Source: Parvibaculum sp. (GTDB taxonomy: Bacteria; Pseudomonadota; Alphaproteobacteria; Parvibaculales; Parvibaculaceae). Taken from it: a stretch of 64,000 bases of DNA. Of the stretch, positions 9,495 through 17,308 are shown one piece after another. The notes beneath the pieces were generated by a model. The model was not told where the DNA came from. It saw nothing but the letters and a program-made list of their open reading frames with translations, and made no database searches. Position 1 is the first letter of the stretch; the number at the start of each line of letters is the position of its first letter. A program made the position numbers and the translations under genes. The DNA lies in the NCBI RefSeq assembly GCF_030651915.1, contig NZ_JAUSBV010000002.1, forward strand, positions 386,414 to 450,413, read 5' to 3'.

Positions 9495-10265
9495 GTGCTT
9501 TCGATCTGGACCAGATTTGTCCTGTTCGCTTGTAGCCTGCTTCTGGCAGCTTGTGGAGAGAACACGGTTGAACTTGGTTCGGATTGGGCGAGCGTATGCC
9601 CTGGTACGGAACAGCCGTCATTGGAGAAAATCAGCGCATTTGCAGGGGCTCACAACCTGATCCCTTTTTCGTCCGAGGAGATTGCCGAGATTGGCGCCAA
9701 ATTCGTTGAGGCGAGTTTGACCCGGAAGAACGATGAAAGCGCGGGCGATCCTGGTTCGCTGGAACGCGCGGAAACTGACTATGCCGACCTGCATGGATGG
9801 TGGTTGGATCGTGATAAGACGGTTTCAATTTCCTTTAATCGAACAAGGGTGAAGTTCGGGAACTCCCCTTGGTTTTCGGCATGCGTCATCAAGGGGATGG
9901 TGACGAAGGAAAGCGCAGTTTATCTCATTGCTCATTTCAAAAGTGGCTTCGTTCAGGGTAGTTCCAATGCCATGCGCCGTTATGTTTATCTGAGTGGAAT
10001 GGATGACCGGCATACGACATCCGGCAGGCTGTTAAAGTTCAATAAAGGGCAGATTTATGCAGGGCCAGAGAACGTTTATGAGCAACTAGTATCCGCACAT
10101 ATGGGAACGGGTCCTGCCATAGATTTCTCAAAAGATGAGACGGATCGTCTTGGCGGAGACTATGAAGCGCCTGAAGCGCTTTCCGAGGAAGATGTGGAAA
10201 AGGTTGGTGAGGCCCTCGATGATCCGGTTTTTCTACTCTACTCGGTCAATGGCTCAGGTGTTTGA
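9495..10265 (+). CDS. orphan lipoprotein encoded between sucC and sucD
   Basis: The 256-residue product starts with a signal peptide ([13 protein letters not shown]) and lipobox LAAC with Cys20, so it is probably an envelope lipoprotein. The mature part has no family I recognise; it contains several aromatic/Trp-rich strands ([20 protein letters not shown]) and may be a beta-rich single domain. The GTG start directly follows the sucC stop, and GAAGGAGG is 8 bases upstream, which makes translational coupling likely. Codon use is less GC-rich than in the flanking genes (many GTT, AAA, TTA), which suggests recent acquisition. The sucD gene resumes 65 bases later with its own ribosome-binding site. 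Confidence 0.75.
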
Positions 10266-10330: not shown

Positions 10331-11206
10331 ATGTCCGTTCTCGTCGACAAGAACACCAAGGTCATCTGCCAGGGCTTCACAGGCAATCAGGGTACGTTCC
10401 ATTCGGAACAGGCGATTGCCTATGGCACGAAAATGGTCGGCGGCGTCAGCCCCGGTAAGGGCGGCTCGAAGCATCTCAATCTGCCGGTCTTCGACACGGT
10501 GGCGCAGGCGGTCGAAAAGACCGGGGCGACGGCCTCAGCGATCTATGTTCCGCCGCCTTTCGCGGCCGATGCGATCCTCGAGGCGATTGATGCCGGTATC
10601 GAGCTTGCCGTCTGCATCACCGAGGGCATTCCGGTTCTCGACATGGTCAAGGTGAAGCGGGCGCTGCAGGGTTCGAAGACGCGCCTTGTCGGCCCCAACT
10701 GCCCCGGCGTCATCACGCCCGGCGAATGCAAGATCGGCATCATGCCCGGCCACATCCACAAGCCGGGCTCGGTCGGCATCGTCTCGCGCTCGGGCACGCT
10801 GACCTATGAAGCCGTGGCGCAGACCACGGCGGCCGGTCTCGGGCAGACCACCTGCATCGGCATCGGCGGCGATCCGGTCAACGGCACCAATTTCATCGAC
10901 TGCCTCGAGATGTTCCTTGGCGATCCGGCCACGACCTCGATCATCATGATCGGCGAGATCGGCGGCTCGGCGGAGGAAGATGCGGCCGAGTTCCTGAAAG
11001 CCTCGAAGATCAAGAAGCCGGTAGTCGGCTTCATCGCCGGCGTCACGGCGCCCCCGGGCCGCCGCATGGGCCATGCGGGCGCGATCATTTCGGGCGGCAA
11101 GGGCGGCGCGGAAGACAAGATGGAGGCCATGCGCTCGGCCGGCATCACGGTCGCCAAGTCGCCTTCGGCGCTCGGGACCACGCTGGTCGAGGTGCTGAAG
11201 GGCTGA
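10331..11206 (+). CDS. sucD: succinyl-CoA ligase alpha subunit
   Basis: The 291-residue subunit binds CoA and carries the phosphorylated histidine. The N terminus [23 protein letters not shown] is canonical, GGVSPGKGG and the CoA-binding Rossmann part follow, and the active His248 sits in [11 protein letters not shown]. The ATG at 10331 is preceded by AGGAAA. An upstream in-frame ATG at 10262 overlaps the lipoprotein stop but would add 23 unrelated residues. It works with SucC in the TCA cycle. Confidence 0.97.
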
Positions 11207-11372
11207 TTTTTGGCTGTTTTCGGCGATTTTCACGGGGTTTCCGGGTTTTCCGGGAGCCCCGCGGCGCGTTTGAACCCTTTGTTGACGCCGGTCCTGCTAA
11301 TTTGTCATCGGTTTACTATATTCTGGTTCTCTAGGGTCGGTTTGCGCGCTTATCTGGTCTGGTTCCAGAATG

Positions 11373-11418
11373 TGCCTACAAGGCAAATCGCATTGACGCT
11401 GGATTGCCTCTCTGGCAA
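11373..11418. promoter_or_regulatory. tandem operator-like dyads in front of the HTH-OdhA gene
   Basis: Two dyads share the form TGCC-N5-GGCAAAT. The first is at 11373-11388 (TGCC-tacaa-GGCAAAT), the second at 11405-11420 (TGCC-tctct-GGCAAAT); their centres are 32 bases apart, about three helical turns. A TTGACG (11393-11398) lies between them, and the second dyad ends 8 bases before the start ATG at 11428. This geometry fits a repressor that straddles a promoter. Confidence 0.5.
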
Positions 11419-11427
11419 ATTTTAAGC

Positions 11428-14400
11428 ATGAAACTCTCCGAATGGCTGGAATCCAACAATCTGACGGCAAGCGCCTTTGCCGAGCAGCTTGGCGTTTCGG
11501 TGTCCACGGTCACGCGCTGCATGAACGGCCAGCGGCGGCCCGAATGGCCGACGCTCGACGCCATTCTCAAGGCGACGGGCGGCGCGGTGACGCCCAATGA
11601 TTTTCTCTCCGGCGAAACGGCTCTTCAGGCGCCCGCAACTCCCGCTCCGGCGCCTTCGTCACATGGATCGGTTCCGATGAGCAGCAACGGCGCGAACGAC
11701 CGCTTCGAGCGGACATCCTTTCTCTACGGCGCCAACGCCGTTTTCGTCGAAGGGCTTTACGCGAAATACCAGCACGATCCGCAATCGGTCGATGCCGAGT
11801 GGCGCGCCTTCTTCGACGGTCTCGACGACAGCCCGGAAGATGTGTTGCGGGAAGCGCGCGGTGCCTCGTGGCGGCGCGATGACTGGCCGCCCGCCGCCAA
11901 TGGCGAGCTTGTCAGCGCGCTTGACGGCAATTGGGGCGCACCGGAATTCGTCTCCGGCAGCATGAAGCAGAAGATTGCCGAGCGCGCGCCGGCCGCCAGC
12001 CAGGACGAGATCCGGGCCGCGACACTCGATTCCGTCCGTGCGCTGATGATGATCCGTGCTTATCGCATTCGCGGCCATCTCGATGCCGATGTCGATCCGC
12101 TCGACCTGCGGCCCAAATCGCAGCATCCCGAGCTGCAGCCCGAAAGCTACGGCTTCGGGCCCGACGATCTCGACCGGCCGATCTTCATCGACAATGTGCT
12201 CGGTCTCGAAACGGCAACCGTGCGCGAAATGCTCGACATTCTGCGCCGCACCTATTGCGGCACGCTGGCGGTCGAGTTCATGCATATCGGCGATCCGGAA
12301 GAGAAGGCCTGGATTCAGGAACGCATTGAAGGACCGGACAAGGAAATTGCCTTCACCGATATGGGCCGCTCGGCGATCCTCGACAAGATGATCCAGTCCG
12401 AAGGCTTCGAGAAGTATTGTGGCGTCAAATATGTCGGCACCAAGCGTTTCGGGCTTGACGGCGCGGAAGCGATGATCCCGGCGCTCGAGCAGATCATCAA
12501 ACGCGGCGGCGCGCTGGGCGCCCGGGAGATCGTGTTCGGCATGGCGCATCGCGGGCGCCTCAACGTTCTTGCCAATGTGATGTCGAAGCCCTATCGCGCG
12601 ATCTTTCATGAATTCAAGGGCGGTTCGTCCAATCCCGAAGACGTCGACGGTTCGGGCGACGTCAAATATCATCTTGGTGCATCATCGGACCGCGAGTTCG
12701 ACGGCAACAAGGTGCATCTGTCGCTGACCGCCAATCCCTCACATCTCGAAATCGTCGATCCCGTCGTGCTCGGCAAGGCGCGCGCCAAGCAGGATCAGCA
12801 TCACGATCGTCAGCGCGGCAGCGTCATTCCGCTGCTGATCCACGGCGATGCGGCATTTGCGGGGCAGGGTATCGTTGCCGAATGTCTTGGCCTGTCGGGC
12901 CTGAAGGGTCACCGCACTGGCGGCTCGATCCATTTCATCATCAACAACCAGATCGGTTTCACGACGAGCCCGATCTACAGCCGCTCCTCGCCTTATCCGT
13001 CCGATGTCGCGAAAATGGTGCAGGCGCCGATTTTTCATGTGAACGGCGACGATCCGGAGGCAGTGGTTCATGCCGCCAAGATTGCAACCGAGTTCCGGCA
13101 GCGTTTCAACAAGCCCGTCGTCATCGACATGTTTTGCTACCGCCGCTTCGGTCACAACGAGAGCGACGACCCAAGCATGACGCAGCCCTTGATGTACCAG
13201 AAGATCAAGGATCATCCGACGACATTGCAGGTTTATTCGAACCGGCTCGTCAGCGAAGGGTTGATGACGCGGGAGGAGGTCGACGCGCGCATCGCCGGAT
13301 TCCGTGCGGAGCTCGATGGTGAGTTCGATGCGTCGAACAATTTCCGTCCCAACAAGGCCGACTGGCTCGATGGCCGCTGGTCCGGCTTCGGCCGTGCCGA
13401 AGGCGAGGCGCGACGCGGCGAGACGGAAGTCGGGATCGACAGGCTGCGCGAGATCGGCCGCAAGCTGACCGAGGTGCCCGAAGGTTTCAACGTTCACAAG
13501 ACGATCCAGCGCTTTCTCGAAAACCGCCGCAAGTCGATCGAAACGGGCGAGGGCATCGACTGGTCGACGGCGGAGGCACTGGCCTTCGGTTCGCTGCTTG
13601 ATGAGGGCATCAAAGTGCGCCTTTCCGGTCAGGACAGCGAACGCGGCACTTTCGTCCAGCGCCACTCGGTGCTCAACGATCAGGAAAACGAGGATCGCTA
13701 CATTCCGCTCAACAGCATTTCCGAACAGGCGGAGTTCGAAGTCATCAACTCGATGCTTTCGGAAGCCGCGGTGCTCGGATTCGAATATGGCTACAGCCTT
13801 GCCGAACCCAATGCGCTGGTGCTCTGGGAAGCGCAGTTCGGCGATTTCACCAATGGCGCGCAGGTCGTGATCGACCAGTTCATCTCGTCGGGCGAACGCA
13901 AATGGCTCCGCATGTCGGGCCTCGTGCTGCTGCTGCCGCATGGCTATGAAGGGCAGGGGCCGGAACATTCCTCGGCACGTCTCGAACGTTTTTTGCAGTC
14001 CTGCGCCGAAGACAATATGCAGGTTGTCAACTGCACGACGCCGATGAATTACTTCCATGTTCTGCGCCGGCAGATGCACCGCAAGTTCCGCAAGCCGCTC
14101 GTCATGATGACGCCGAAGTCGCTGCTGCGCCACAAGCGGTGTGTGTCGAAGCTTGAGGAATTCGGACCGGGCTCCTCGTTCCACCGCGTGCTCTGGGACG
14201 ACGCTGCGCTGCTGCCTGACCAGAAGATCAAGCTGGTGGACGACAAGGAAATCAAGCGCGTCGTGCTCTGCACCGGCAAGGTCTATTACGATCTTTACGA
14301 GGAACGCGAGCGGCGCGAGATCAACGATATCTATCTGATGCGTGTCGAGCAGCTCTATCCCTTCCCGGCCAAATCGCTGATCACCGAGCTTTCGCGGTTC

Positions 14401-14622
14401 CCGCAGGCTGAGTTCATCTGGTGTCAGGAAGAGCCGAAGAACATGGGCGCCTGGTTCTTCATGGAGCCCAATATCGAATGGGTGCTCGATCATGTCGGGG
14501 CGCGTTATCGTCGCGCTTCCTATGTCGGGCGGCCGGCCTCGGCGGCGACGGCGACAGGCCTTCTCAGCAAGCACAATCAGGAATTGAACCAGTTTCTTTC
14601 GGAAGCACTGAAGATCGATTGA
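11428..14622 (+). CDS. sucA: 2-oxoglutarate dehydrogenase E1 with N-terminal helix-turn-helix domain
   Basis: E1 decarboxylates 2-oxoglutarate on thiamine diphosphate and succinylates the lipoyl group of SucB. From ATG 11428 the product has 1064 residues. Residues 1-62 look like a Cro/YdaS-type HTH ([20 protein letters not shown], then [11 protein letters not shown]), residues 63-83 are an Ala/Pro linker, and E1 starts at about Met84 ([22 protein letters not shown]). E1 motifs include [23 protein letters not shown]...NNQIGFTT for thiamine diphosphate, and the normal C-terminal domain. No stop separates the HTH from E1, so translation from 11428 must make a fusion. An internal ATG at 11677 with a weak GGATCGG could give normal E1 of 981 residues. 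The dyads at 11373-11420 lie just upstream. Confidence 0.92.
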
Positions 14623-14662: not shown

Positions 14663-15907
14663 ATGGCGACGGAAATTCGCGTGCCCACGCTGGGCGAATC
14701 GGTGACGGAAGCGACCGTCGCGAAGTGGTTCAAGAAGCCGGGCGATCAGGTCACGATCGACGAGCCGCTGGTCGAGCTCGAAACCGACAAGGTGACGGTC
14801 GAGGTGCCGGCGCCGAAGTCGGGCGTGCTCTCCGAAATCATGGTCAAGGACGGCGAGACGGTCGAGGTTGGCGCGCTCCTGGGCGAGATTGGCGAAGGCA
14901 AGGGCAAGGCCGCGGCGCCTGCCGCCGCGCGCAAGGAAGAACCGAAAAAGGAAGAGCCGAAAAAGGAAGAGCCGAAGAAGGCTGAAGCGCCCAAGTCCGA
15001 AGCCAAGGCGCCGGCCAAACCCGCCGATGCGCAACCCTCGCCGGCGGTGCGCCGCGTTGCGGCCGAGAACGATCTCGATGTGTCGAAGATCGACGGCACG
15101 GGCCGCGGCGGCCGCGTTACCAAGGAAGATGCCGAGGCCGCCGCGAAATCGGGCGGTCAGGGCAGGTCTGAAGCGCCGGCTGCGGCGCCCGCGCCGCGCG
15201 ACGACAGCGCGCGCGAGGAACGCGTGAAGATGACGCGCCTGCGCAAGACCATCGCGACACGTCTCAAGGAGGCGCAGAACACGGCTGCCATGCTGACCAC
15301 CTTCAACGAGGTGGACATGTCGGGCGTCATGGCGCTGCGCACGCAATACAAGGATCTCTTCGAAAAGAAGCATGGCGTGCGCGTCGGCTTCATGGGCTTC
15401 TTCGTCAAGGCCGTCATTCACGCGCTGCGCGAAATCCCGGCCGTCAATGCCGAAATCGACGGCGAGGAACTGGTCTACAAGAACTACTACAATATCGGCG
15501 TCGCGGTCGGTACCGATCGCGGTCTTGTCGTGCCGGTGTTGCGCGAGGCGCAGGACCTGTCTCTGGCCGAGATCGAAAAGGAAATCAACGCGCTCGGCAG
15601 CCGCGCCCGCGACGGCCAGCTCAAACTCGAAGAACTGCAGGGCGGCACCTTCACGATTTCGAATGGCGGCGTCTACGGCTCGCTGATGTCGACGCCGATC
15701 CTCAACGCGCCGCAATCGGGCGTGCTTGGCATGCACAAGATCCAGGAACGGCCGGTCGCCATCGGCGGCAAGGTCGAAATCCGGCCGATGATGTATCTGG
15801 CGCTGTCCTACGATCACCGCATTGTCGACGGCAAGGAGGCGGTCACCTTCCTGGTGCGCGTCAAGGAATCGCTCGAAGACCCGCAGCGCCTGCTGCTCGA
15901 CCTCTGA
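14663..15907 (+). CDS. sucB: dihydrolipoyl succinyltransferase (E2 of 2-oxoglutarate dehydrogenase)
   Basis: The 414-residue E2 core forms the oligomeric centre of the complex. Domains in order: lipoyl domain (1-77) with the lipoylated Lys43 in [12 protein letters not shown]; a highly charged linker (about 85-120) made of repeating K-K-E-E-P units; the E3-binding domain (about 123-160, [11 protein letters not shown]...[10 protein letters not shown]); and the acyltransferase domain (about 185-414) with catalytic His385 and Asp389 in [10 protein letters not shown]. The gene begins 40 bases after sucA and ends 9 bases before lpd, so sucA-sucB-lpd is one operon. Confidence 0.97.
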
Positions 15908-15916
15908 GGTAAATTC

Positions 15917-17308
15917 ATGGCAGACGCATTCGACATCGTGGTGATCGGCGCTGGCCCGGGCGGCTATGAATGCGCGATCAAGGCCGCCCAGCTCGGCCTC
16001 AAGGTCGTGGTGGTCGAAAAGCGCGACCGGCTGGGCGGCACCTGTCTCAATATCGGCTGCATCCCGTCAAAGGCGCTGCTGCATGCCTCGGAACTTTTCC
16101 ACGAGGCGGGCCATGCCTTCGAAGGCATGGGCATCGAGGTCGGCAAGCCGAAGCTCAATCTGAAGCAGATGCTCGCCTTCAAGGATGAGGCGATCGACGG
16201 CAACACCAAGGGCATCGAGTTCCTGTTCAAGAAGAACAAGATCGAATGGGTGAAAGGCGAGGGCGTCATCGAGGCGGCCGGCAAGGTCAAGGTTGGCGAC
16301 CGCACGCTCGAGACGAAGAATATCGTGATTGCCACCGGCTCGGATGTCGCGAAGCTGCCGGGCATCGAGATCGACGAAAAGACGGTGGTTTCCTCGACCG
16401 GCGCGCTCGAACTCGACAAGGTGCCGGGCAAACTGCTGGTCATCGGCGGCGGCGTCATCGGGCTCGAACTCGGTTCGGTCTGGGGTCGTCTCGGCGCGGA
16501 AGTGACCGTCGTTGAATTCCTCGACAACATCCTGCCGGGCATGGATGGCGAGGTGGTCCGCAACTTCACCCGCATCCTCAAGAAGCAGGGCTTCACGCTG
16601 AAGCTCGGCGCCAAAGTCACGAAAGTCGAGAAGCAGAAATCGGGACTCAAGGTTTCGGTCGAGCCGGCCAAGGGCGGCGATGCCGAAACGCTCGATGCCG
16701 ATGTCGTGCTGGTCGCGGTCGGCCGCACCGCCTATACGGCCGGCCTCGGTCTCGACAAGGTCGGGGTCAAGACCGATAAACGCGGCCGCGTCGAGGTCGA
16801 TGAAAGCTACCGGACGAATGTCGAAGGCATCTATGCGATCGGCGACGTGATCGCCGGCCCGATGCTGGCGCACAAGGCGATGGAAGAGGGCGTGACACTG
16901 GCCGAGAAGCTTGCCGGCCATTACGGCGCGGTCAATTACGAGGTCATTCCGGGCGTCGTCTACACCGCGCCCGAAGTGGCAAGCGTCGGCCAGACCGAGG
17001 AACAGTTGAAGGAAGCGGGCATCGACTACAATGCCGGCAAGTTCCCGTTCACGGCCAATGGCCGCGCCAAGGCCAACAAGACGACCGATGGTTTCGTCAA
17101 GATCCTCGCCGACAAGAAGACCGACCGCGTGCTCGGCGTTCACATTATCGGCGTCAATGCCGGCGAGCTGATCGCGGAAGCCGCCATCGCGATGGAGTTC
17201 TCGGCAAGCTCGGAAGACATTGCCCGCATCTGTTTTGCCCATCCGACGCTGTCGGAAGCGGTCAAGGAAGCGGCACTCGCCGTCACCGGCCTGCCGATCC
17301 ATATGTGA
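15917..17308 (+). CDS. lpd: dihydrolipoyl dehydrogenase (E3)
   Basis: The 463-residue FAD flavoprotein reoxidises dihydrolipoyl groups and reduces NAD+. The FAD motif [10 protein letters not shown] is at the N terminus, the redox-active disulphide is Cys43/Cys48 in [13 protein letters not shown], a second Rossmann motif [10 protein letters not shown] is near residue 178, and the C-terminal dimer motif HAHPTLSE appears as [14 protein letters not shown] with the catalytic His. It closes the sucA-sucB-lpd operon and converges on xerC with a 4-base gap. Confidence 0.97.

Follow-up and report, generated by a model that had tools for sequence, protein, structure and literature searches.

In a group of Parvibaculum genomes, the E1 component of 2-oxoglutarate dehydrogenase carries a fused helix-turn-helix (HTH) domain at its N-terminus; this fusion is conserved, its HTH is under selection, and two inverted repeats upstream of the gene are strictly associated with it. 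The evidence points to a dedicated autoregulatory head, which is a narrower function than the coupling of 2-oxoglutarate flux to transcription proposed in a first-pass annotation of the locus, because the palindromes are found at the promoter region of the fused gene itself and the searches did not clearly point to a large regulon. It is considered likely that a dimer of the HTH-E1 protein would bind both repeats and thereby repress its own E1-E2-E3 operon, a reading built on sequence comparisons. The first-pass annotation had overlooked the palindromes as well as the parallel fusions of related HTH domains to other enzymes. The features of the locus are collected in Table 1, with positions given in the window, i.e. 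the whole 64,000-nucleotide stretch of Parvibaculum DNA that was analysed.

Table 1. Positions of features at the HTH-E1 locus and the observations on which each of them is based.
Feature	Position	Strand	Basis
Inverted repeat A (GTGCC-TACAA-GGCAA), candidate operator 1, upstream of TTGAC	11372..11386	.	present in 16/16 fusions
TTGAC, -35-like, between both repeats	11393..11397	+	invariant in 16/16; putative -35 reading
Inverted repeat B (TTGCC-TCTCT-GGCAA), candidate operator 2	11404..11418	.	32 bp from repeat A
Cro/C1-type HTH, residues 1-62	11428..11613	+	Pfam HTH_31 and HTH_3, dN/dS, AlphaFold2
Ala/Pro-rich linker, residues 63-83	11614..11676	+	dN/dS 0.49; 19 or 21 codons in 16 copies
ATGGA, possible retained Shine-Dalgarno (GGA)	11663..11667	+	ends 9 nt before ATG; invariant in 16/16
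E1 (odhA/sucA), full length, possible internal start ATG at 11677	11677..14622	+	NF006914
E2 (odhB/sucB), next gene, probably same operon	14663..15907	+	ORF of 414 aa, named by eye
E3 (lpd), next gene, probably same operon	15917..17308	+	ORF of 463 aa, named by eye

A single open frame on the plus strand (11428-14622, 1064 aa) runs through both parts of the protein without a stop or frameshift, and matches in Pfam and NCBIfam bear out the in-frame fusion of an HTH to a full-length E1 described in the first-pass annotation. Two Pfam profiles, HTH_31 (34.2 bits, cut-off 27) and HTH_3 (25.8 bits, cut-off 23), recognise the N-terminal domain in the HTH-E1 protein. The earlier description of this domain as Cro/YdaS-like holds for its Cro/C1-type part; membership in YdaS (PF15943) was rejected at 12.8 bits against a cut-off of 30, using residues 1-83 alone, and since the YdaS profile is below its cut-off, 'Cro/C1-type' is the safer label. 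An AlphaFold2 model of the HTH, generated from 61 residues and an alignment of 15 rows, has a mean pLDDT of 91.0 and presents five helices (residues 3-9, 14-21, 25-32, 40-50 and 56-59). Among the matches listed by Foldseek (50 PDB chains), the structural neighbours of this model are mostly HTH regulators and include the YdaS N-domain, HigA and P22 c2, none of the matches reaching E<=0.001.

The remainder of the protein is an E1 that matches the NCBIfam model NF006914 with 1419.6 bits (cut-off 764). The Pfam domains PF16078, PF00676, PF02779 and PF16870 are all over their cut-offs in the HTH-E1 protein, with 2-oxogl_dehyd_N matching residues 96-135 and the E1 domains following. In the overall alignment, residues 199-1063 are colinear with the Escherichia coli E1 (2jgd), and the N-terminal segment 92-132 aligns weakly with residues 8-48 of 2jgd (16.4 bits). 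By the marker PF16078, which has a single match each in genomes G000 and G011 among the matches listed, the fused gene appears to be the sole E1 of both. Elsewhere in the window, a 256-aa ORF whose function was not recognised (9495-10265) lies between genes that resemble sucC and sucD by eye; sucC and sucD usually adjoin.

Of the 27 Parvibaculum genomes, 15 contain this open frame, with 16 copies altogether, three of which (those of G013 and G005 and one of two in G012) are cut inside E1 by contig ends. Owing to this recurrence, the fusion is no sequencing artefact: a frameshift, a missed stop or an assembly error is ruled out, neither a stop nor a frameshift was found at 11600-11680, where the first-pass annotation had suggested that one might be hidden, and a stop between HTH and E1 is present in 0 of the 16 HTH-bearing copies. 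G012 holds two different HTH-E1 copies on two contigs (L068, L069), which may represent a mixed assembly because its contamination amounts to 6%. Unfused E1 genes were detected in eight other Parvibaculum genomes and in all ten genomes searched from the rest of the family. In a further Parvibaculum genome, G015, the gene begins at a contig end, and E1 was not matched in G010, G021 and G022, each of which is less than 90% complete. The comparison of E1 N-termini across relatives, which had been recommended previously, thus yields an HTH that is conserved in 16 copies and lacking in 18 other E1 genes of the family. In a tree of 34 of the 35 E1 rows (G030 was under the length limit), all fusions fall into a single group that requires one change of state (support 97/92). 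Outside Parvibaculum, no E1 fusion was found among the matches listed for a profile of the fused HTH, termed A1, in 385 sampled genomes of the Alphaproteobacteria, 298 of which contain PF16078; A1, which might miss a very different HTH, was found in an E1 frame only in the two Parvibaculum genomes of this sample, again among the matches listed.

Selection was estimated from the 16 copies, with dN/dS values of 0.082 for the HTH (residues 1-62), 0.49 for the linker, 0.20 for E1 residues 84-140 and 0.066 for E1 residues 201-1064. The difference between 0.082 and 0.49 indicates that the HTH codons are selected as protein and that the HTH is maintained as a protein domain next to a weakly constrained linker. 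There is next to no likelihood that the HTH is not translated in practice, with E1 made from Met84 and the upstream frame open by chance; the ATG at 11677 and the GGA preceding it are invariant and no Shine-Dalgarno sequence is visible by eye before 11428, but the frame is open with a conserved start ATG and the low dN/dS extends over 62 codons in 16 copies.

A product starting at Met84 may nevertheless arise in addition, as the first-pass annotation envisaged when it proposed an internal start giving a normal E1. Met84 is invariant in every copy although its flanking residues vary. Codon 80 is GGA throughout and represents the sole all-GGA column among 68 conserved glycine columns, in which GGA accounts for 59 of 1052 codons, 16 of the 59 being located at codon 80. 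Likewise, the nucleotides ATGGA are invariant although residue 79 is His, Asn or Asp. This invariance of the ATG and of ATGGA suggests that the Shine-Dalgarno-like GGA and the old E1 start may still be used and that two products are possible; the internal start would probably also give plain E1, leaving only part of the pool with an HTH. The ATG inside ATGGA opens an out-of-frame, five-codon frame whose stop is the TGA overlapping the E1 ATG, and either the GGA or this out-of-frame ATG could be behind the conservation of ATGGA.

The two inverted repeats are located immediately 5' of the HTH start, 32-33 bp apart and with TTGAC between them. A scan of 300 bp upstream, with one mismatch allowed, recovered both repeats in 16/16 fusions (A at -56 to -58, B at -24 or -26) and either repeat in 0/18 unfused genes of the family; it covered 18 of 19 unfused genes, G015 being excluded for its contig-end start. 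The presence of the repeats follows that of the HTH. All 20 arm columns of the aligned upstream region are invariant; among the spacer columns this holds for 1 of 10, and among the other columns for 15 of 90, the five of TTGAC included (Fisher p 7e-13, a descriptive value, the sequences being related). The imperfect GTGCC arm of repeat A is kept in all 16 fusions, which fits sequence-specific binding and not RNA pairing. In sequence, the repeats resemble the footprint that a DNA-binding dimer would leave. A consensus scan of 11180-11720 found no sigma-70 promoter, a sigma-70 consensus promoter was accordingly rejected, and the promoter is assigned only by TTGAC.

Two other explanations of these repeats can be weighed against the same alignment. 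It is highly improbable that they are RNA hairpins in the leader instead of operators: TTGCC-N5-GGCAA could give a 5-bp stem with a 5-nt loop, but compensatory changes are absent, no arm varies, not even the mismatched one in repeat A, the end of repeat B is 9 nt away from the start codon and this repeat might lie outside the transcript, and no Rfam family was matched at the gathering score in the 18 loci scanned, among them four fusion loci. It is also very unlikely that the HTH is without a DNA role, be it as a protein-binding or tethering head or as a relic, and that a different regulator acts on the repeats. Protein binding is known for Cro/C1 folds, but the strict tracking of the HTH by the repeats (16/16 versus 0/18) is unexpected for another regulator, the same pairing of HTH and palindrome recurs in the HTH-MeaB fusions described below, and a dN/dS of 0.08 beside a linker of 0.49 is not expected of a relic.

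The unfused genes display a different upstream element. A G+C-rich hairpin (GGTGCGGG...CCCGCACC) that is not seen in the fusion clade lies just before the unfused E1 start (L072-L090) and has no match to an Rfam family. Its alignment comprises 13 of the 18 unfused genes; G003 and G007 lack the hairpin by eye, and the others omitted are close copies. Seven pairs are predicted, one of them with a two-sided change, and a riboregulator is not claimed because only this one pair of the seven has changed on both sides.

In the preferred autoregulatory reading, the binding of DNA, its repressing effect, the shared operon and a response to free E1 are inferred. As E1 is a homodimer, each dimer would bring two fused HTHs together, a pair that could bind a palindrome. 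The HTH-E1 dimer is proposed to occupy the two 15-bp repeats (arms TTGCC/GGCAA with one GTGCC, 5-bp spacer) that flank TTGAC, and occupancy of both sites would keep the E1-E2-E3 operon from being transcribed. The output of the complex would be set by the level of E1, most likely of E1 that is not engaged with E2. The N-terminal segment of E1 binds E2, and because the HTH adjoins this segment, the capture of E1 by E2 is the preferred guess for how repression might be released, with a ligand effect as a possible alternative.

A broader role for HTH-E1, in which the repeat is bound at other promoters and the state of 2-oxoglutarate or thiamine diphosphate is coupled to a regulon, is regarded as unlikely. 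Genome G000 contains 24 distinct KTGCC-N5-GGCAA positions, and counts of TTGCC-N5-GGCAA are somewhat higher in ten fusion genomes (6-17) than in eight unfused genomes (4-16), but these ranges overlap. Among the 22 other positions in G000, 20 were examined, and 17 of them fall inside ORFs of at least 150 aa and 3 outside, a split that is weak evidence, with ORFs listed mechanically in G+C-rich DNA. Additionally, the list contains no second pair spaced by about 32 bp, the nearest further pair lying 68 bp apart inside an ORF. Neither the motif counts across genomes nor the motif positions in G000 give a clear sign of a large regulon.

Relatives of the fused HTH occur in other Alphaproteobacteria. 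Profile A1 identified them in 33 of the 385 sampled genomes (E 1e-6), and a second, broader profile derived from part of the A1 matches did so in 46 (1e-7); several are N-terminal heads of enzymes. Pfam scans of ten proteins assigned one RibBA, three glutamine-synthetase-like proteins, one MeaB, one aspartate/ornithine carbamoyltransferase and one NarJ-like protein (Nitrate_red_del), the remaining three being one RuBisCO-like protein with a different HTH and two without a second domain; three of these proteins scored under the HTH_3 cut-off of 23 (21.0, 21.8 and 19.6). Further partners were named by eye for their likeness to the Pfam-scanned ones, namely RibBA in G077, G299 and G223, glutamine-synthetase-like proteins in G203, G345 and the second genes of G077 and G299, and MeaB in G044 and G177. 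The RuBisCO-large-like protein of G308 (L155) has an N-terminal HTH_3 of another, better-scoring subtype, and this fusion was excluded from the counts.

Within one family of the Alphaproteobacteria, 24 of the 32 small genomes carry the HTH fused to the GTPase MeaB (25 places; L148, L151, L157, L209-L233). Near the ATG of this fusion, TAACC-N5-GGTTA is exact in 22 of the 25 places and has one change in the other three, and the spacers vary; 18 places were examined first and seven more later, four of the seven being exact. HTH-MeaB, belonging to another family, would represent an independent parallel to HTH-E1 and its palindrome. The HTH-carbamoyltransferase of G225 (L152), whose partner resembles aspartate carbamoyltransferase (PyrB) by eye, has TTACC-N5-GGTAA 42 bp before the start. 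The RibBA fusions (riboflavin synthesis; L143, L145, L146, L150, L205-L208) have mostly imperfect TTNAG-N5-CTTAA-like repeats, with TTTAG as the arm in G105. In the spacing scan, three of four RibBA genes have a repeat, one (G223) with unlike arms, and within one family one of four has an exact repeat. The recognition helix carries Gln in the RibBA type and Arg in the E1 and MeaB types. N5-palindromes with the arms TACCC and TATCC precede two fusions whose partner was not recognised. Two of the seven glutamine-synthetase-like fusions have a repeat, both G+C-rich and perhaps due to chance, and no repeat was found upstream of the NarJ-like fusion (0/1) or of G323 with its unrecognised partner (0/1).

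For a statistical comparison, an N5 palindrome was counted if its arms were of at least 5 and it lay within 80 bp. It is present in 12 of 20 non-redundant fusion genes (shuffled mean 2.38, with 0/300 shuffles as high) and in 5 of 20 standalone HTH genes (shuffled mean 2.45, 26/300 as high). The fusion set consists of one E1, four RibBA, seven glutamine-synthetase-like, two MeaB, one carbamoyltransferase, one NarJ-like and four genes with unrecognised partners. Together, the 20 fusion and 20 standalone genes draw on at most 41 of the 56 places of the broader-profile search; they leave out another 15 copies of E1, G044 (which nearly duplicates G275), the standalone G028 gene, and weaker places. 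A spacing of 5 is the peak (15/23 fusion genes), and the values for spacings 7 (12) and 3 (8) are partly high because arms that are long also enter the counts at adjacent odd spacings. The N5 spacing had been noticed before its statistical test; the MeaB family alone is a test made afterwards and is the fairer one of the N5 pairing.

The domain content of HTH-E1 fits the class of trigger enzymes. PutA, a trigger enzyme, binds DNA by a ribbon-helix-helix, and the E1p of Azotobacter vinelandii, which is not known to have a fused HTH domain, reportedly binds the fpr promoter. Like these and other trigger enzymes, HTH-E1 would be a metabolic enzyme that also acts on DNA, from which it differs by a Cro/C1 HTH in place of the ribbon-helix-helix of PutA and by having a fused domain at all when compared to the Azotobacter E1p. 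Enzymes with HTH heads are already known, examples being BirA, BzdR as a derived case, and PutA. The group II biotin protein ligases represented by BirA are working enzymes with an N-terminal DNA-binding HTH and have group I relatives without it, an arrangement similar to HTH-E1 and its HTH-less relatives; BirA controls biotin genes, whereas the only target seen for HTH-E1 is its own gene, as a candidate. BzdR, as portrayed in PMC3602430, shares with HTH-E1 the order of a DNA-binding head, a linker and an enzyme-derived C-terminal part, in its case derived from shikimate kinase. It has lost enzyme activity according to the same paper, whereas the E1 of HTH-E1 is full length and, by PF16078 among the matches listed, the only one in G000 and G011. 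For AcrIIA15, PMC10901769 describes an N-terminal HTH (residues 1-56) joined to an effector and binding both inverted repeats of its promoter, IR1 upstream of the -35 and IR2 between the -35 and -10. HTH-E1 resembles it in having an N-terminal HTH on an effector and likewise two repeats, which flank TTGAC, with no -10 assigned here. AcrIIA15 is a 170-aa inhibitor that dimerises via its HTH, whereas in HTH-E1 the partner of the HTH is a large enzyme of the TCA cycle that forms dimers of its own, and the binding of repeats is demonstrated for the autorepressing AcrIIA15 and predicted for HTH-E1. Word searches of open-licence PMC papers retrieved, among the matches listed, no E1 with a fused DNA-binding domain and none of these fusions.

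If true, autoregulation by HTH-E1 would place a feedback loop made of a single protein at the metabolic branch where the TCA cycle and nitrogen assimilation part. Beyond Parvibaculum, the balance tips somewhat towards an HTH head, portable and some 60 residues long, that was joined repeatedly and independently to the starts of unrelated metabolic proteins in Alphaproteobacteria (E1, RibBA, MeaB, a carbamoyltransferase, glutamine-synthetase-like enzymes and a NarJ-like chaperone) and that would borrow the oligomeric state of its host; in many cases, a private 15-bp palindrome at the start of the host gene would allow the enzyme to count and to limit itself. The arms differ by clade (TTGCC, TAACC, TTACC, TACCC, TATCC) at a constant 5-bp spacer, so that a recognition code is testable, and a small HTH head together with its palindrome could be engineered to render an enzyme self-limiting. 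Given the parallel fusions, the joining of an HTH head may be a general way for an enzyme to gain its own regulator in one step.
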